Below are positions 1-5,970 of a DNA stretch of 5,970 bases, piece by piece. A program made the translations under genes and the position numbers. The DNA lies in contig JAGAYB010000077.1 of the NCBI GenBank assembly GCA_017940705.1, positions 1 to 5,970 on the forward strand. The letters run 5' to 3'. This DNA is from Selenomonas sp. (GTDB taxonomy: Bacteria > Bacillota_C > Negativicutes > Selenomonadales > Selenomonadaceae). The notes beneath the pieces were generated by a model. That model was not told the origin of the DNA. It saw only the letters and a list, made by a program, of their open reading frames with translations, and searched no databases. How positions within the stretch are numbered: the first letter of the stretch is position 1; the number at the start of each line of letters is the position of its first letter.

Positions 1-11
1 ACCTGAAACAT
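1..11 (-). CDS. 5' tip of a gene leaving the window on the left
   Basis: An ATG on the minus strand (complement of 9-11) is preceded by AGGAGT (complement of 19-24). The AGGAG core lies 8 nt from the start codon, which is a standard ribosome binding site spacing. Only the codons for M-F-Q and two bases of a Val-type codon (GT) are inside the window, so the product cannot be named. An in-frame GTG at 18-20 overlaps the Shine-Dalgarno sequence and is not preferred. The gene is on the same strand as the mannan genes but is separated from them by a strong terminator and about 280 nt of repeat-rich DNA, so it is probably an independent transcription unit. The call rests only on the start site. Confidence 0.45.
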
Positions 12-35
12 CTGTATCACTCCTATTATTTTATA

Positions 36-51
36 CATGCAGATTTGCATG
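36..51. repeat. 6-bp inverted repeat CATGCA-N4-TGCATG
   Basis: CATGCA (36-41) and TGCATG (46-51) are perfect inverted arms around GATT. The repeat lies just upstream, in the minus-strand sense, of a TATAAA-like hexamer (complement of 30-35) and of the start codon at 11. It could be an operator for the left-hand gene or a small leader hairpin. The symmetry is seen in the sequence; the function is inferred. Confidence 0.4.
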
Positions 52-65
52 CGTTTCTGTCTCAA

Positions 66-105
66 AACTACAGTCTCAAAAAGTGTACTTTATGAGACTG
101 TAGTT
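66..105. repeat. Palindrome 1 (13-bp outer arms plus 5-bp inner arms)
   Basis: AACTACAGTCTCA (66-78) is perfectly complementary to TGAGACTGTAGTT (93-105). After a single A-A mismatch (79/92), AAAGT (80-84) pairs with ACTTT (87-91) around a 2-nt centre. Its 26-nt core (73-98), read on the plus strand, equals the core of palindrome 2 (231-256) read on the minus strand at 25 of 26 positions. A dyad this long could be a regulator operator or an RNA hairpin. On the minus strand it is followed by TTTTGAG, a weak terminator-like tail. Confidence 0.85.
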
Positions 106-116
106 CAACATTGCAA
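87..116 (-). promoter_or_regulatory. Possible promoter for the left-hand gene
   Basis: On the minus strand, TTGCAA (complement of 111-116) and TAAAGT (complement of 87-92) are 18 bp apart, each matching 4 of 6 consensus positions for a housekeeping sigma factor. The -10 lies inside palindrome 1, so a protein bound there would block it. The leader would be about 70 nt before the ATG at 11. A competing -10 is TATAAA (complement of 30-35), but it lacks a good -35. The match is weak. Confidence 0.25.
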
Positions 117-125
117 AAAATGTTG
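106..125. repeat. 7-bp hairpin next to palindrome 1
   Basis: CAACATT (106-112) pairs with AATGTTG (119-125) around a 6-nt loop. On the plus strand it is followed by TTTT (126-129). It starts at the base after palindrome 1 ends, so the two hairpins would stack in any RNA crossing the region. The AT-rich stem makes it a poor terminator by itself. Confidence 0.5.
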
Positions 126-181
126 TTTTCAACCGAAAAGTCTCAAAAACACCCTCTGAAAACGAAAAAATCACAAAAAGA

Positions 182-211
182 TTGGACTTTGCAAAAACCC
201 TTTGCTATAAT
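182..211 (+). promoter_or_regulatory. Plus-strand promoter with extended -10
   Basis: A perfect TATAAT (206-211) is preceded by TGC (203-205), giving an extended -10 (TGnTATAAT). A partial -35, TTGGAC (182-187), lies 18 bp upstream. The start of transcription would be near 218, only about 9 nt before palindrome 2. No plus-strand gene follows: the DNA ahead holds two hairpins and then the 3' end of the isomerase gene in antisense. The promoter therefore either makes a short noncoding RNA or is a chance match in AT-rich DNA. Confidence 0.4.
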
Positions 212-226
212 GTAATTTGTAAATTC

Positions 227-260
227 AAAGGTCTCAAAAAGTACACTTTTTGAGACCTTT
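227..260. repeat. Palindrome 2 (16-bp perfect arms, 2-nt centre)
   Basis: AAAGGTCTCAAAAAGT (227-242) is the exact reverse complement of ACTTTTTGAGACCTTT (245-260), with AC between. It shares its GTCTCAAAAAGT half-site with palindrome 1 and is essentially an inverted copy of it. A T run at its right edge (258-261) gives terminator-like geometry on the plus strand, but a 2-nt centre is very tight for an RNA loop. A protein-binding dyad is an equally good reading. Confidence 0.85.
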
Positions 261-291
261 TCGTTGTGTTAAATTATTTTTTGCACGATAA

Positions 292-325
292 AAAGCCCAG
301 CAGGTTCTTAAGCCTGCTGGGCTTT
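292..325 (-). terminator. Intrinsic terminator after the isomerase gene
   Basis: AAAGCCCAGCAGG (292-304) and CCTGCTGGGCTTT (313-325) form a 13-bp GC-rich stem with an 8-nt loop. Read on the minus strand, the stem runs into TTTTT and then ATCG. It begins 35 nt past the isomerase stop codon at 361. Outer bases CGAT (286-289) and ATCG (326-329) can extend the stem across a 2-nt bulge. On the plus strand the stem is followed only by TTTATCGTTTATG, so termination there would be weaker but possible. Confidence 0.9.
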
Positions 326-360
326 ATCGTTTATGTTTACTATGTATTCTATGTTCCTGA

Positions 361-1326
361 TTACAATTTGCTCAAAATAAATTCTGCCTGCCCCTGCAGC
401 TGATAAGTGCCCAGCCCAGCAGGGACAAATACTGTCCTGCCCTTATCCAGCGTAAGGCTCTCACCATTCCCCGTAAGCTTTAATGCCCCATCGAGCACCG
501 TCAGGCAATGGAAGGAATCTTCACCGGTGTGCATGGCACTATCTCCATGCAAAGCACCATGATATACCTTAAAGTATTGGCATTCAGCCAAAAGCTTGAC
601 ATCCATATTGGGGAACAGGTCGATGTCAACCATTTTTTCAGCCACAGCCTGCGGCACCTCCAGCTTAGTCACCGCCAAAGCCTTATCAATATGCAGCTGC
701 CGCGGCTTGCCATCCTTGCCCACGCGTCCATAATCATAGACACGATAGGTCAGATTGGAACTTTGCTGCACTTCATAAATCAGAATGCCGCTGCCAATGG
801 CATGGAGGGTACCGGCCTTGATGAAGAACACATCCCCCTTATGCACCGGCACCTTATTGCAAACTTCCAGCAGGGTATTGTCCTCAATGCGCTGCTGAAA
901 TTCTTCCTTGCTGATTTCCTGCTGAAAACCATAGATCAGGCTGGCACCGGGTTCAGCATCCACCACATACCACATTTCCGTCTTGCCCTGCTCGCCTTCC
1001 TCCCGCAGAGCATATTCATCATCGGGATGCACCTGCACAGACAGTTCGCCCTTGGCATCAATGAACTTAATCAGCAAAGGGAAATAATCCATAGCCTGTG
1101 CCTTCGTGCCAAGCATAGCCTTGCCTGCACCGGACAAAACATCAGCCAGCGTACGGCCTTTGGCCTCGCCGCTGTCCACTACGCTAAGGCCGGCTTCATG
1201 ACAGGAAAGCTCCCAGCTTTCTGCCACGATATCCAAATCCGATTCCTTGCCATACTCATTTTTCAAGCGGCTGCCGCCCCAGAGATAATCCTTCAGCGGT
1301 GCCTTTAGCAGCATGGGTTTTAACAT
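361..1326 (-). CDS. manA: Mannose-6-phosphate isomerase, type I, short form
   Basis: Converts mannose-6-phosphate and fructose-6-phosphate in the cytoplasm, feeding mannose from mannan into glycolysis. The 321-aa length fits the short Firmicute class (B. subtilis ManA and GmuF, about 315 aa). Visible hallmarks are the Zn-site motif SVQVHPDD (Gln98 and His100 as likely ligands), Glu117 in KTEMWYVV, His175 in [10 protein letters not shown], and the active-site stretch [10 protein letters not shown] with Arg195. The cupin-like C-terminal domain is intact. The reading frame is open back to 1449, but that would overlap the upstream regulator gene by 92 nt. The ATG at 1326 has GGAG (complement of 1337-1340) 10 nt upstream and family-like sequence ([12 protein letters not shown]) right after it. 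A TTG one codon earlier (1329) has slightly better spacing. It follows the regulator by 31 nt and is the last gene before the terminator. It is the functional equivalent of gmuF. Confidence 0.93.
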
Positions 1327-1357
1327 CAAAACATCACTCCATTTTCCCAAAATACCT

Positions 1358-2068
1358 TCAACGAATGCTGACCGAACGGAAATTGCTGCGGTCACCACGA
1401 TGGCGGGCAATCGAATATTCAAAAGGACGCCCATCGTCCAAAAAAGCAACCTGTGTCACTTCCAGCAGGGGAAGCAGGCCTTCTATCCGGAGCTGTTCGC
1501 GCTCTGAAGCGGTAGGCATCACAGCCCGCACCGTACGATGCGCTGACTGGATTTTATATCCCAGTTCACCTTCGATGTAGCCGTATATCGAATTCTCCAG
1601 CGTCTGTCGCTTGAGACCCGTTATGAGCTGAATCGGCATCTGCGTATATTCAATTACGACAGGCTGCTCATCCAGAATTCTTACCCGGACAATATCATAG
1701 ACAAAATCATCTGTCGTCAGCTGCAACTTGGCTGCTACCTCGGCAGCAGGATGAATAATCTCAAATTTTAAGATTTTGGAAGCGACATCTCTCCCCTTGA
1801 ACGTTGCCGCAAAACCGGAAAACTGATTCGCCATGCTCAGTTCCTTCACGTCCTCATCCTTGAGCGATTTGACGAATGTCCCCGAACCGCGGCGCTTGAC
1901 GACCAGCCCTTGTTTGACCAGTTCATCAACAGCCCGCTTGATGGTAATGCGGCTTACGCCATACTGCTGGCACATTTCCTTTTCCAGGGCCAGCTGTTCA
2001 CCGGGTGTATATTTGCCCTGCTGGATATCCTCTCTAAGTTCTCTGGCGATTGCCTCATACTTTAACAC
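1358..2068 (-). CDS. GntR-family (HutC/UTRA) transcriptional regulator, copy 1
   Basis: Predicted ligand-responsive repressor, 236 aa, resembling GmuR of the B. subtilis glucomannan operon. Residues about 3-70 form a winged helix, with GVSRITIKRAVDELV as recognition helix and GLVVKRRGSGTFV as wing. Residues about 90-232 are a UTRA effector domain ending in the usual LPLLEV, DGRPFEYS and HRGDRSNF blocks. The start is GTG, chosen because AAGGAGGA (complement of 2077-2084) lies 8 nt upstream and the winged helix begins at once. It has its own promoter and leads a two-gene unit with the isomerase. It is about 61% identical to the regulator at 3561-4280 by hand alignment. The effector is unknown; phosphorylated manno- or gluco-oligosaccharides are likely by analogy with GmuR. 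Confidence 0.9.
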   Translation of the reverse strand: MLKYEAIARELREDIQQGKYTPGEQLALEKEMCQQYGVSRITIKRAVDELVKQGLVVKRRGSGTFVKSLKDEDVKELSMANQFSGFAATFKGRDVASKILKFEIIHPAAEVAAKLQLTTDDFVYDIVRVRILDEQPVVIEYTQMPIQLITGLKRQTLENSIYGYIEGELGYKIQSAHRTVRAVMPTASEREQLRIEGLLPLLEVTQVAFLDDGRPFEYSIARHRGDRSNFRSVSIR

Positions 2069-2078
2069 GACGGCCGTC
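2069..2078. repeat. 10-bp GC palindrome between ribosome binding site and GTG start
   Basis: GACGGCCGTC is a perfect palindrome filling the space between the Shine-Dalgarno sequence (2077-2084) and the GTG start at 2068, overlapping the former by two bases. It is too short and loop-less for a normal hairpin. It may be a protein site or chance. Confidence 0.35.
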
Positions 2079-2088
2079 CTCCTTGCTC

Positions 2089-2102
2089 ATATATAGATAT
2101 AT
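2089..2102. promoter_or_regulatory. Candidate operator at the regulator promoter
   Basis: ATATAT-AG-ATATAT is a near-symmetric AT dyad that overlaps the end of the -10 hexamer and the expected start of transcription near 2094. A repressor bound here would block the promoter, which fits autoregulation by the GntR-family protein encoded next. It does not clearly match the GT-N-TA-N-AC core known for HutC-type regulators, so the assignment is tentative. Confidence 0.35.
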
Positions 2103-2129
2103 TATATAGCGAATTGCCTAAAAGTACAA
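2101..2129 (-). promoter_or_regulatory. Promoter of the regulator-isomerase unit
   Basis: On the minus strand, a perfect TATAAT (complement of 2101-2106) lies 17 bp downstream of TTGTAC (complement of 2124-2129), a half-match to the -35 consensus. The start of transcription is expected near 2094, giving a leader of about 25 nt with the ribosome binding site at 2077-2084. No terminator is visible between the porin stop and this promoter, so read-through from the porin operon can add to its output. Confidence 0.7.
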
Positions 2130-2143
2130 ACTCTGTCCCATTC

Positions 2144-2172
2144 GCCTGCCTGAAGGAAACGGCCTGTCTGAA
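2144..2172. repeat. Two 11-bp direct repeats, 18-nt period
   Basis: GCCTGCCTGAA (2144-2154) and GCCTGTCTGAA (2162-2172) differ at one base. They lie 15 to 43 bp upstream of the -35 hexamer of the regulator promoter. A second pair, CCCATTC (2137-2143 and 2182-2188), brackets them. Direct repeats here could bind an activator, but the period is not a whole number of helical turns. Confidence 0.4.
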
Positions 2173-2197
2173 CGAGCTTGCCCCATTCAGAAATTTC

Positions 2198-3544
2198 TCA
2201 GAAGCTGAACAGCAGATTGGTAAAGTAAGCTGTGCGGTGTGCACCATTGTCGTATGCTTTGTTTATTGCCGTACCGCTGAACAAATAGCCCTGAATTTGA
2301 ATGTTTTTGGTGAAATGATACCAAAGGCTGGCTTCCCATCCCTTGCGTCCCGGTTTTTCACTGCCATTAACCACACTGCTCATAATAAGGGCATCGGAAC
2401 CCAGATAGCGGTAACCTAAGGAGCCTCCCATCTTTTTATCGCCCCATGGGCTGCCATTATATATGAACTTAATATCATAGGCCTTGTTCTGATAGTGCTG
2501 GTTGCCACGGGAATAAAAACCCGCAATTTCCCAATTATGAGAAAGCCGCTGGCGCAGATTTAACGCCACTATCCCCAAATGACTGTCTCCATAAGCTATA
2601 GGCGAATGAAGATTATAATAGCCAAGGCCCACAGTTGTACGATTGGTAAATCGGTGTTCTACAGCCAGCCCCCAGGCCCGCAGTTTTTGGTTCTTAAAGC
2701 CGGTTTCTGTGCCGCCTGCACCTGTACCAACGTATTCAAAGTCTCCACGATTGCCATGCCGGCGAAAGGCATCTGACCAGTCCGAAGACAAATCGGATAC
2801 TTTTTCATGCAAATTGCCGACATAAGCTTTCAACGTGTTTTTTCCCATCTGATAGTCCAGCTCCATGCCTTTGGTTCTGGCATTTCCTACTACACCTTCC
2901 TGCAGGCTGGGCGTAAACAGCCCCAGAGTAAGCGTTGAGCCTTTGAACAGTGGCCCTTTGGCATAAAGCTGATAAAGCATGCTGGATACTTTCACATTGG
3001 AAGCTCCATAAGCATCCGAAAATTCCTGCTCACTATTCCAGCCTTCATTACTGCCCCATTTCGTATCAATGCCTGCATGAACATTCCACTGTTCATTGAC
3101 AGCCGCATCTACGTTCAGGAACAGTTCTTTTTCCCACCATGTATGTTTATCACTGTTGCCCTTCATGGCCTTTTGGGCAAAAACACCACTCCATTTTACC
3201 CGGTCAGCATGTTTTTCCAGATTAGCTGTTTTAACGCCAAGATTTTCCAGTTCATTGCGAAATTCCGCCGTTAATTTGTCAACCAGCGCCTTGTCTGCAC
3301 CGCTTGGATTTTTCGCCTGCGCTTTCGCCACCATTTGCGCCATTTCATAACGGGTAATCTGGCGGCTGCCACGAAAATCTTTCGCACCATACCCTTCAAT
3401 AATCCCTTCATCGGCCAATTGTGCTACTGCATCATAGGCCCAATGGTCTGCCGGAACATCCGTGAAAGGGTTGGCTGCGGCTGAACAGCCAGCCGCCAAC
3501 CCCATACTCAGTGATAATGCCGTCCAAAACCATTTTTTCTGCAT
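2198..3544 (-). CDS. SLH-domain outer-membrane porin (OmpM/Mep45 type)
   Basis: Outer-membrane channel of the Negativicutes type, 448 aa. Residues 1 to about 24 are a signal peptide with a hydrophobic core (FWTALSLSMGLAAG). Residues about 26-75 are one SLH domain (NPFTDVPADHWAYDAV, then ITRYEMAQMV), which in this family holds the outer membrane to the cell wall. Residues about 84-112 look like a short coiled coil. The remainder is rich in alternating aromatic and polar segments, fits a beta-barrel, and ends in Phe, the usual barrel-assembly signal. The ATG at 3544 is preferred over 3550 because GGAGGA (3551-3556) abuts the latter but is 6 nt from the former. The gene begins 16 nt after the regulator copy 2 stop, within the mannanase operon. 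Inferred substrate: manno- or gluco-oligosaccharides. Cys20 (LAAGC) resembles a lipobox, although the AAANPF cleavage region looks more like signal peptidase I. Confidence 0.88.
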   Translation of the reverse strand: MQKKWFWTALSLSMGLAAGCSAAANPFTDVPADHWAYDAVAQLADEGIIEGYGAKDFRGSRQITRYEMAQMVAKAQAKNPSGADKALVDKLTAEFRNELENLGVKTANLEKHADRVKWSGVFAQKAMKGNSDKHTWWEKELFLNVDAAVNEQWNVHAGIDTKWGSNEGWNSEQEFSDAYGASNVKVSSMLYQLYAKGPLFKGSTLTLGLFTPSLQEGVVGNARTKGMELDYQMGKNTLKAYVGNLHEKVSDLSSDWSDAFRRHGNRGDFEYVGTGAGGTETGFKNQKLRAWGLAVEHRFTNRTTVGLGYYNLHSPIAYGDSHLGIVALNLRQRLSHNWEIAGFYSRGNQHYQNKAYDIKFIYNGSPWGDKKMGGSLGYRYLGSDALIMSSVVNGSEKPGRKGWEASLWYHFTKNIQIQGYLFSGTAINKAYDNGAHRTAYFTNLLFSF

Positions 3545-3550
3545 GCTCAT

Positions 3551-3556
3551 TCCTCC
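3551..3556 (-). promoter_or_regulatory. Ribosome binding site deciding the porin start
   Basis: GGAGGA on the minus strand touches the ATG at 3550 but sits 6 nt from the in-frame ATG two codons later (3544). This makes 3544 the likely start and trims two residues from the longest reading frame. Confidence 0.75.
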
Positions 3557-3560
3557 ATAA

Positions 3561-4280
3561 TCATCTTACTGAAACAGCCTTGAAGTTCATCTTATCGCCC
3601 CGATGGCGGGACAGGGAATACTCAAAAGGACGGCCATCAGACAAAAACGCTGCCTGCTGTACCTCTAGCAGAGGCATGTCTTCCTTTATGCCTAATAATT
3701 CCTGCTCCTTTTTCGTAGGCATTACCGCCCGCACAGTACGATGCGCCGACTGGATATGCAAGCCCAAAGTTCCCTCGATATACCGATATAAAGAGTCCTT
3801 TAGATGGCTTTCTTTCAACCCTGTGATGAGGTCAATCGGCATCTGCGTATATTCCATAACCACCGGTTCGCCATCTGCACAGCGCAACCGCTGGATATCA
3901 TAAACAAAATCGTCTTCGGATATGCCCAGCTGCTCTGCGGCCTCCTGCTCAGGATGTATAATCGCAAAATGCAGGACTTCCGTATGAACCTTGTGTCCCT
4001 GATAATATTCCGAAAAGCCGCCAAATTGCGCAGAACGGCTCAGCTTATGCACAGCATGGTCATCCAGTGCCTTGACAAAAGTGCCTGCTCCCCGCCGCTT
4101 TACGACCAGTCCATCGTTTACCAGCTCATCCACCGCCCGTTTAATGGTAATCCGGCTGACGGCAAACTCAGCACACAAATCCTTTTCCAAAGGCAGCTGG
4201 CTGCCGGGAAGATATTCGCCTTGACGAATGGCCTGACGGATTCTGTCCGCCACTTGTTGATATTTAGCGCGGCTGCTCAT
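3561..4280 (-). CDS. GntR-family (HutC/UTRA) transcriptional regulator, copy 2
   Basis: Predicted repressor of 239 aa, similar to GmuR. The winged helix spans about residues 5-72 (recognition helix AVSRITIKRAVDELV, wing GLVVKRRGAGTFV). A UTRA effector domain spans about 92-235 (MPLLEV, DGRPFEYS, HRGDKMNF). The ATG overlaps the mannanase stop as ATGA and has no strong Shine-Dalgarno sequence, so translation is probably coupled to the mannanase. The DNA-reading helix is identical to copy 1 from SRITIKRAVDELV on. The sugar-binding half is less alike, for example residues 75-130. The two proteins may therefore share operators but respond to different ligands. It is the positional counterpart of gmuR; which copy is the true orthologue cannot be told from the window. 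Confidence 0.9.
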   Translation of the reverse strand: MSSRAKYQQVADRIRQAIRQGEYLPGSQLPLEKDLCAEFAVSRITIKRAVDELVNDGLVVKRRGAGTFVKALDDHAVHKLSRSAQFGGFSEYYQGHKVHTEVLHFAIIHPEQEAAEQLGISEDDFVYDIQRLRCADGEPVVMEYTQMPIDLITGLKESHLKDSLYRYIEGTLGLHIQSAHRTVRAVMPTKKEQELLGIKEDMPLLEVQQAAFLSDGRPFEYSLSRHRGDKMNFKAVSVR

Positions 4281-5620
4281 TTCACCGTACCTGCCTGCAG
4301 TTTCTTATAATTCGTATTGCCATCGGCAAATATACTGTATGGCTCGTTGTAAAAGGCCGTAAATTCATCAATCATCTCATGCCCGCGGTTTTCACTGACC
4401 ATATAAGGCATGAAGAAATTATGTTCTTCCTTGTCAAAGTTTGCCCAGACCATATAATAGGATGCCTTATGTTCACGACAAAGATTTCCCACTTGGGAAA
4501 ACCACTGTTTATCGACATTATTTTGTATCGCCAGACTGCCGCCCCTGCGCACACCAGCCTCAGTTAGTGCCGTAACTTTATGACGTTCTTTGCCCAGCTT
4601 CTCCATCACAGCCAGCGTCTGGGAAAGATTCTGATACCATGCACCACTTTGATCATCATCATAAGTATCTACACCCAAAATATCCACATAATCATCGCCG
4701 GGGTAACGGTCTAAATAGTCTTCTGCACGAGAAAACGGGCCATTTGGCGAATAGGCATAGAGGAAATTATGCACGCCTTTTTCATCACGCATATATTCGG
4801 CCGTGTATTTCCACAAGGACGAAAAATCCTTGCTGCTGATGTTGCGTCCGCCCCACCAGAACCAAAAGCCATTGTGCTCATGCAAAGGACGGAAAATAAC
4901 CGGAATATGCTTTTCCTGCAGGCGCAGGGCAAAATCAGCCACCAAGTCCAGATAAGCCCGATAAACGTTATTGAGGTCACCGCCCGGCAAGATTCGTTTG
5001 CCCACTTCGCCGGTCAATATATGCGGACTATAGCCCTTAAAATCGTAGGCACCATTGATTTTCGGTTTCTTGGCCACTACATCAAAATTGGGCATATGCA
5101 TGGATAGCGTGAGGATTGCCCCCTGCCGGTCAGCATTTACAGCAATCTCCACCAGCTTATCCGTAAGGGTTACGCCGGCAGCCATTTCCTTGTCCGTTAA
5201 AGTCAGTTCATCGCCAGTAAGGGACAAGGAATCTATGCCCACAACACCGGCAATGCTGCCCGTCACATCCTTGCAATCGGATTCCGTGCCACTGTCCACG
5301 CGGAACATCTTATGATGCGTGTCATTCTGATGCCCGTAAATCACTTTTCCTGCCTGCGGAACAGCCCAAAGATAGCGATAAAGCTTGGCAGCCTCCGGAA
5401 TCAGCTGCTTATCCACCACTTGATTATCCTGTGGTGCCAACTTTTCCACTTTACGCAAGGACAGTGCTTCTTTTTTCGCCGTGCGGTTATCCGCTGCTAC
5501 CGTGCGGTTGACATAAGCTTCATCCTGCGGATTGTCCACCACACTTGCCTGCACGTTTCCGGCAAACAGGGGCATGCCTAATGATACACCGACAGCCAAA
5601 GCCAGCAATTTCTTTTTCAT
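4277..5620 (-). CDS. Secreted GH26 endo-beta-1,4-mannanase
   Basis: Predicted to hydrolyse beta-1,4-mannosidic bonds in mannan or glucomannan outside the inner membrane. The precursor is 447 aa. Residues 1-25 are a signal peptide (KKK, hydrophobic core, likely cut after NVQA). Residues about 26-75 are a charged linker. The GH26 catalytic domain covers about 76-435. The acid/base is Glu248 in FRPLHEHNGFWFWWG and the nucleophile is Glu354 in LTEAGVRRGG; YGHQND (95-100) and LSMHMPNF (172-179) are further family motifs. The frame extends upstream to 5665 and would overlap the GH1 gene, but AAAGGAG (complement of 5628-5634) is 7 nt before the ATG at 5620, where the signal peptide begins. No SLH or carbohydrate-binding module is visible, so a soluble periplasmic or exported enzyme is likely. 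It is the equivalent of gmuG. Confidence 0.93.
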   Translation of the reverse strand: MKKKLLALAVGVSLGMPLFAGNVQASVVDNPQDEAYVNRTVAADNRTAKKEALSLRKVEKLAPQDNQVVDKQLIPEAAKLYRYLWAVPQAGKVIYGHQNDTHHKMFRVDSGTESDCKDVTGSIAGVVGIDSLSLTGDELTLTDKEMAAGVTLTDKLVEIAVNADRQGAILTLSMHMPNFDVVAKKPKINGAYDFKGYSPHILTGEVGKRILPGGDLNNVYRAYLDLVADFALRLQEKHIPVIFRPLHEHNGFWFWWGGRNISSKDFSSLWKYTAEYMRDEKGVHNFLYAYSPNGPFSRAEDYLDRYPGDDYVDILGVDTYDDDQSGAWYQNLSQTLAVMEKLGKERHKVTALTEAGVRRGGSLAIQNNVDKQWFSQVGNLCREHKASYYMVWANFDKEEHNFFMPYMVSENRGHEMIDEFTAFYNEPYSIFADGNTNYKKLQAGTVK

Positions 5621-5642
5621 GAATAAGCTCCTTTCTGCTTTC

Positions 5643-5970
5643 CTACTCCTCAAAACCATTGGCAACAGCCAGTTTCTTAAACCAATAAGCCGATTTCTTC
5701 AAGGTTTTCTGCTGAGTGGCCAAATCCAGCGCAATCAGGCCATAACGGTTTTTATAGGCATTGGACCAGGACCAGCAGTCAATAGGCGTCCAAAGATGAT
5801 AGCCAAAACAGTTGGAACCTTCTGCAATGCCTTGATGCAGCCATTGCAAATGCTCTCTTATAAAGTCAATCCGATAATCATCGGCAATGCTGCCATCTGC
5901 CTGCCGGAATTTTTCTTCGCCCTCTACGCCCATGCCGTTTTCAGATACATACCAGGGAATATTGTCGTAG
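5643..5970 (-). CDS. GH1 glycosidase (probable 6-phospho-beta-glucosidase), C-terminal part
   Basis: The last 108 residues of a family 1 glycoside hydrolase; the N-terminal part lies beyond the right edge. The fragment starts just before the nucleophile motif YVSENG (Glu codon complement of 5940-5942). It also has DDYRIDFIREHL and the late motif GYHLWTPIDCWSWSNAYKNRYGLI. Enzymes acting on free glucosides usually carry Glu in the NFEW position. Here it is Ser (CWSW), with a Lys and KNRYG following, which points to phosphorylated substrates as in GmuD of B. subtilis. That specificity is inferred, since the acid/base half is missing. The frame is open to the window edge, so the internal Met at 5933 is not the start. 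It sits 22 nt upstream of the mannanase in the same operon. Its role would be intracellular splitting of imported beta-linked oligosaccharides. Confidence 0.88.
   Translation of the reverse strand, partial: YDNIPWYVSENGMGVEGEEKFRQADGSIADDYRIDFIREHLQWLHQGIAEGSNCFGYHLWTPIDCWSWSNAYKNRYGLIALDLATQQKTLKKSAYWFKKLAVANGFEE

Follow-up and report, generated by a model that had tools for sequence, protein, structure and literature searches.

A small DNA segment next to the gene that begins at position 11 of a 5,970-bp stretch of Selenomonas sp. DNA (hereafter, the window), found in both directions among relatives, is most likely an on/off switch for a cell-surface polysaccharide operon. From sequence comparison, we consider it very probable that the repeat array in the window is an invertible promoter, in which a recombinase would reverse the segment and the operon running leftward from 11 would be OFF as drawn. 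The evidence, all of it read from sequence, comprises inverted site pairs, a promoter between them, both orientations of the segment (at an orthologous locus and at paralogous loci), half-sites that have been exchanged and one recombinase that co-occurs with the sites.

In the mechanism that we propose, each 26-bp palindrome would be bound by a dimer of a serine recombinase whose gene lies elsewhere in the genome; the enzyme would cut at the 2-bp core and rejoin the ends, leaving the DNA from core to core reversed. In the OFF state the promoter would fire rightward to the terminator at 292-325; inversion would bring its -10 box to about 118-123 on the minus strand, from where the promoter would drive the operon at 11. 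Expression would in this way follow orientation.

Repeat sites and promoter in the window

The motif TTTTGAGAC is found on the minus strand at 59-67, 73-81, 140-148 and 231-239 and on the plus strand at 248-256, and a one-mismatch copy, TTATGAGAC, lies on the plus strand at 90-98; a new search of the window returned all six as placed in a first-pass annotation of this DNA. They represent every match to TTTTGAGAC with up to one mismatch in the 5970 bases, as compared with a mean of 1.41 matches in 200 dinucleotide shuffles of the window, one of which reached six. The match at 25 of 26 positions that the annotation had reported for two 26-nt cores was also reproduced by inverted-repeat comparison: the dyads at 73-98 and 231-256, separated by 132 bp (99-230), are inverted copies complementary at 25/26 positions (96%). 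Each is itself a palindrome extending past 26 bp, with arms at 66-84/87-105 (19 nt, 95%) and 227-242/245-260 (16 nt, 100%), respectively. Crossover sites of serine recombinases are laid out as 12 bp, a 2-bp core and 12 bp, and the two dyads are best read as putative 26-bp sites of this kind, with a 12-bp half-site on either side of a 2-bp core (Table 1).

Table 1. Predicted elements of the switch and its surroundings in the window
Feature	Position	Strand	Remarks
Opening codons (M F Q) of the first gene in the switched operon	1..11	-	Assigned by eye, 11 bases only
Lone half-site	59..67	-	In head-to-tail orientation to the outer half-site of A; may serve the recombinase as an accessory site
Crossover site A (gene side), predicted	73..98	.	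GTCTCAAAAAGT-GT-ACTTTATGAGAC; homologous sites in relatives
Stretch expected to reverse, core to core	87..242	.	Expected from relatives seen in both orientations
Lone half-site inside segment	140..148	-	Possible accessory recombinase site
Promoter TGGACT-17-TATAAT inside segment	183..211	+	10/12 to consensus; points right, OFF for gene at 11
Crossover site B (distal), predicted	231..256	.	GTCTCAAAAAGT-AC-ACTTTTTGAGAC; core inverse to that of site A; homologous sites in relatives
Hairpin terminator after manA	292..325	.	Expected to end the outward transcript of the OFF state too

Since the promoter inside the segment fires rightward, the operon leftward from 11 is predicted to be OFF as drawn. 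This state may not be silent, because weaker promoter-like matches (9/12 to consensus) lie on the minus strand at 237-209 and 375-346. The gene start at 11 proposed in the annotation is plausible by eye, with an ATG at 11-9 and an AGGAG just upstream on the minus strand, although only 11 bases of the gene fall inside the window; the leader, likewise inspected by eye, is similar to the leaders of relatives. A small imperfect palindrome, CATGCAGATTTGCATG, lies in this leader at window positions 36-51, in the space from site A to the gene, and a TGCAAAT/ATGCAT-like motif, a possible operator, recurs in the leaders of relatives.

An Rfam search of the window gave 25 matches at E values up to 1, none of them at gathering score. 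The putative RNA that would start at the outward promoter and stop at the terminator has a predicted fold of -53.5 kcal/mol (z -11.1). We rejected a small RNA gene at this place, as the palindrome and the terminator account for the fold and nothing else speaks for such a gene. The remainder of the window (361-5970, minus strand) encodes GH1 and GH26 proteins, a GntR/UTRA regulator, an SLH-domain protein, a second GntR/UTRA regulator and a type-I phosphomannose isomerase (manA), a cluster that looks suited to the use of mannan and in which two similar regulators flank the SLH protein.

Site pairs and their orientation in Selenomonas

A contig scan for GTCTCAAAAAGTNNACTTTNTGAGAC identified 36 stretches, 16 of them from Selenomonas and the others from Eubacterium, Lachnospiraceae, other Clostridia and cyanobacteria, with a few singles. 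In the 11 Selenomonas genomes that these represent there were 48 matches to the core pattern at up to two mismatches, from two to seven in each genome, and none to its reversed control. Thirty-six matches formed inverted pairs, four lay at most 150 bp from the end of a contig and eight stood alone, all eight with two mismatches. Full pairs number one or two in nine genomes and three in G009; G008, with both sites near contig ends, has none.

In S. ruminantium-type loci the first gene behind the switch encodes a 55-aa protein resembling ribbon-helix-helix proteins (RHH_5, 21.5 bits, below the Pfam cut-off of 26), followed by a Wzz-type or WbaP-type gene. In the other loci tested by Pfam, a Wzz gene directly follows the switch in L001, L003, L086, L088, L143 and L153 and a sugar transferase gene in L090 and L145-L148; the exception among the loci tested is L150, with a NusG-domain gene (PF02357) beside the pair. 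The L150 pair (4417-5091) is degenerate, and the NusG-domain protein is possibly a specialised antiterminator. The operon at L195, read further, encodes a sugar transferase, glycosyltransferases, UDP-galactopyranose mutase and a nucleotidyl transferase. As judged from these gene predictions, the site pairs mark a set of wzz/wbaP-type polysaccharide operons in Selenomonas. The switched operon of the window, whose first gene is seen for 11 bases and its leader only, would be a polysaccharide operon as well.

What the first-pass annotation had said of the arrangement thus stands in part: the array is real, has several copies among relatives and is linked to the gene at 11. It had also held that clustering of the 26-nt core before a defined gene set would favor a regulon; at up to two mismatches in relatives the core does mark a set of polysaccharide operons, in regulon-like fashion, but the control indicated is DNA inversion, and the mechanisms that the annotation had put forward are not supported. 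Two of these, a scattered REP-type hairpin family and the ends of a small MITE-like mobile element, placed by chance before operons, would account for multi-copy, palindromic sequences with strong hairpins, yet we regard them as scarcely credible: 36 of the 48 matches are paired, the pairs keep one spacing class and one promoter type and lie upstream of one operon class, and the segment occurs in both orientations within an otherwise conserved place; nor did the loci inspected show a transposase or an empty site.

This last observation concerns one orthologous locus, found in both orientations between strains, with the window's own locus outside the comparison. L003 (S. ruminantium WCT3) and L088 (S. 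ruminis) share the same downstream genes and are 93.8% identical in the distal flank and 96.7% in the gene-side flank, whereas their segments are 49.6% identical unreversed and 97.5% reversed. L003 has one GTCTC..GAGAC site and one TTATC..GATAA site and L088 has two hybrids, both GTCTC..GATAA; hybrid sites in one and unmixed sites in the other are the pattern predicted by strand exchange inside the sites. The segments of L032 and L086, whose distal flanks differ, are 52.7% identical unreversed and 92.6% reversed, and within the single contig of G157 the segment of L146 is reversed against those of its paralogues L147 (95.5%) and L148 (97.7%). The comparison of L087 with L086 (50.0% vs 56.2%) was uninformative for orientation. 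Inversion between strains was read from their different assemblies, each of which displays one form.

The gene side of each pair was assigned by hand, and over 25 gap-free pairs 20 were OFF (window included) and five ON (L086, L088, L145, L146 and L153). This final count includes L150 and L153, absent from a first tabulation of flanks and half-sites; L104, ON with a gap of N, falls outside the 25 and would make a sixth ON locus, and lone sites near contig ends (G006, G008, G010, G158) allow no assignment. The paired sites are spaced by 145-168 bp, and one promoter type lies inside the segment in 25/25 pairs, the scoring having accepted TGGACA as a -35 match, a choice made after seeing the loci. 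Cores are GT/AC in 20/25 pairs; G157, G161 and G162 have the self-inverse core AT. Half-sites were matched if OFF (L001, L002, L003, L032, L087, L090, L143) and exchanged if ON (L086, L088) in 9/9 GT/AC-core loci whose two half-site types differ. We rejected this rule as a general one, since among AT-core loci L147 and L148 contradict it, L145 ties and L146 and L153 fit. The ON count fits at most one ON locus per genome (one each in G003, G005, G007 and G157, none seen in G002, G006, G009 and G011), in small numbers and from assemblies that show one form only. Complementarity between the flanks of a site is seen mainly when the segment is OFF (Wilcoxon p 0.004 over 10 OFF loci of the S. ruminantium type, from hand-copied counts in which L102 ties and loci of the same genome are not independent), and L104, which is ON and adjoins an assembly gap, is a counter-example.

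The nearest relative of the window by manA DNA is G011, an assembly labelled S. ruminantium (91% and 97% identity over two pieces). When ten manA loci from relatives were compared with window positions 1-420 by blastn, the match was confined to the manA end. A switch beside manA was absent from 7/10 loci, those with the downstream side present, the other three contigs (L155, L176, L181) ending within ~430 bp of manA or inside it; other genes occupy the orthologous place in relatives. Because these manA loci are without the switch, the window's own switch locus has no orthologue for comparison, and it is from the related pairs that we infer that its copy flips.

Similar sites were seen in other contexts. 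Three same-type site pairs, 128 bp apart, precede other genes in a Eubacterium MAG (L005, L012, L030) and would represent a similar switch in another lineage. Single sites amid further GTCTC/GAGAC copies in cyanobacteria and Cohaesibacter (L006, L011, L026, L029, L034) may be transposon resolvase sites. A single palindrome, TCTAAAAGTCTACTGTTTGA, is present once each in G004:C212, G005:C62, G006:C39 and G009:C84.

Candidate recombinase and possible accessory sites

Several PF00239 genes are present in each of the 12 genomes tested, among which one recombinase of 197-198 aa stands out by its co-occurrence with the sites; its PF00239 domain scores 98.3 bits (cut-off 23.3), identifying it as a serine recombinase. 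Across 189 genomes of the family it was found at 68% identity or more in 17, the cut-off being set where the data show a gap (59% for the next best), and the core site at up to one mismatch in 18. Both are present in 15 genomes, the enzyme only in two, sites only in three and neither in 169 (Fisher p 1.8e-17, kinship ignored). Weaker recombinase matches occur in 85/189 genomes, and the reversed control pattern at one mismatch has one match each in 5/189. Sites without the enzyme are those of G011 (a 2.1-Mb assembly), G136 (one lone site) and G161 (which has a 54% recombinase); G160 and G165 have the enzyme without sites. The recombinase gene lies less than 1.7 kb from a site in 10/17 genomes, and less than 90 bp in G009, G155, G157 and G162. 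In the Lachnospiraceae locus L016 a 52%-identical recombinase adjoins the site. In a tblastn search concerned with sites outside Selenomonas, only L010, L016, L019 and L022 of the 36 scan loci matched the recombinase, and none was found at E 1e-4 in the fetched DNA of the others. This 197-198-aa protein is the one that would perform the inversion.

The third mechanism offered in the first-pass annotation, a plain multi-site operator, has to be weighed against these data. A transcription factor acting on TTTTGAGAC half-sites would regulate the gene at 11 and the inverted pair would be incidental, in line with five exact copies and one near copy upstream of one gene and with the recurrence of lone half-sites in relatives. 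It leaves unexplained why the DNA between the dyads is reversed with half-sites exchanged, why the cores are inverse and why a serine recombinase co-occurs, and we judge it highly improbable.

An invertible promoter might also have become locked, the sites being intact in a strain that no longer flips (the enzyme lost or a site dead) and whose operon stays OFF. We consider this unlikely, both sites and the promoter of the window being well kept, even though 20/25 pairs are OFF, no enzyme reaches 68% identity in G011, the nearest relative (albeit in an assembly of 2.1 Mb), and relics exist. One such case is G160, where a decayed site with a leader but no partner (L198 1256-1281) is likely the relic of a lost switch in a genome that has retained the recombinase.

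The best solved relative of the recombinase is Sin (112.9 bits over residues 5-158), ahead of gamma-delta resolvase (65.9 bits) and the DNA-invertase chains 4m6f (52.1) and 3uj3 (51.1); against NCBIfam NF009949 (the Mpi family) it scored 42.8 bits, below the cut-off of 272. Since the regulatory site II of Sin has head-to-tail half-sites (PMC2428073), an accessory role for the lone half-sites at 59-67 and 140-148 is at most a reasonable guess. In a nine-locus alignment of S. ruminantium-type loci (L100, with a 133-bp segment, omitted), the half-site at 59-67 is kept in 8/9 and that at 140-148 in 9/9, the latter with a conservation of 0.909 vs 0.879 for the rest of the segment, hardly higher. 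In L102 (5103-5140) the half-site beside site A is cleanly missing together with its spacer, so that one half-site is retained where relatives have two in tandem.

A more elaborate scheme is possible but doubtful. In it, a Sin-like, resolvase-type recombinase would have become a genome-wide Selenomonas capsule switch for up to three polysaccharide promoters, with a head-to-tail half-site beside the segment and another inside it as built-in accessory sites; the RHH-like first gene would help to keep at most one operon ON, and in S. ruminantium-type loci long hairpins formed in the OFF orientation might block read-through.

Relation to known switches

The hix sites of Hin/Gin-type invertases are 26 bp long, with two 12-bp halves around a 2-bp core, a layout that the Selenomonas sites share; unlike those invertases, the Selenomonas recombinase is nearer to Sin than to the invertase chains. 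Among solved structures Sin is its best match, and the half-site at 59-67, head-to-tail beside site A, recalls site II of Sin and might be bound as well; Sin, in contrast, resolves plasmids, and Selenomonas has two inverted sites around a promoter. Beta recombinase is reportedly able to invert DNA, going by the titles of cited papers.

According to one report, Mpi, a serine recombinase of Bacteroides fragilis, acts on at least 13 scattered invertible regions, seven polysaccharide loci among them (PMC5903667). The Selenomonas system is similar in that promoters lie between inverted sites upstream of polysaccharide loci and one serine recombinase would serve many regions; it differs in an enzyme far below the Mpi-model cut-off, in having up to three pairs per genome and in belonging to another phylum. 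Gut strains of Firmicutes_C, mainly Negativicutes-like, are described as having a median of 11 invertons per genome (PMC11892184). Like these, the Selenomonas segment would be invertible, intergenic and near surface genes; the passages concerned in that source name no Selenomonas, site or recombinase of this type.

Our search, with most subscription journals outside its scope, found no paper combining Selenomonas with DNA inversion and, judged by title, none on Selenomonas itself among 10 that mention both Selenomonas and phase variation. The Selenomonas switch would be what is new here, serine-recombinase control of polysaccharide promoters (B. fragilis Mpi) and invertons in Negativicutes-like gut strains being already known. 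The enzymes associated with polysaccharide switching would gain a member nearer to Sin that does not belong to the Mpi family. Selenomonas is common in the rumen. Now that the site is defined and a candidate enzyme named, PCR can test surface variation in this group, and the orientation of the switch can be scored in existing metagenomes. Selenomonas cultures may be mixtures of switch states.
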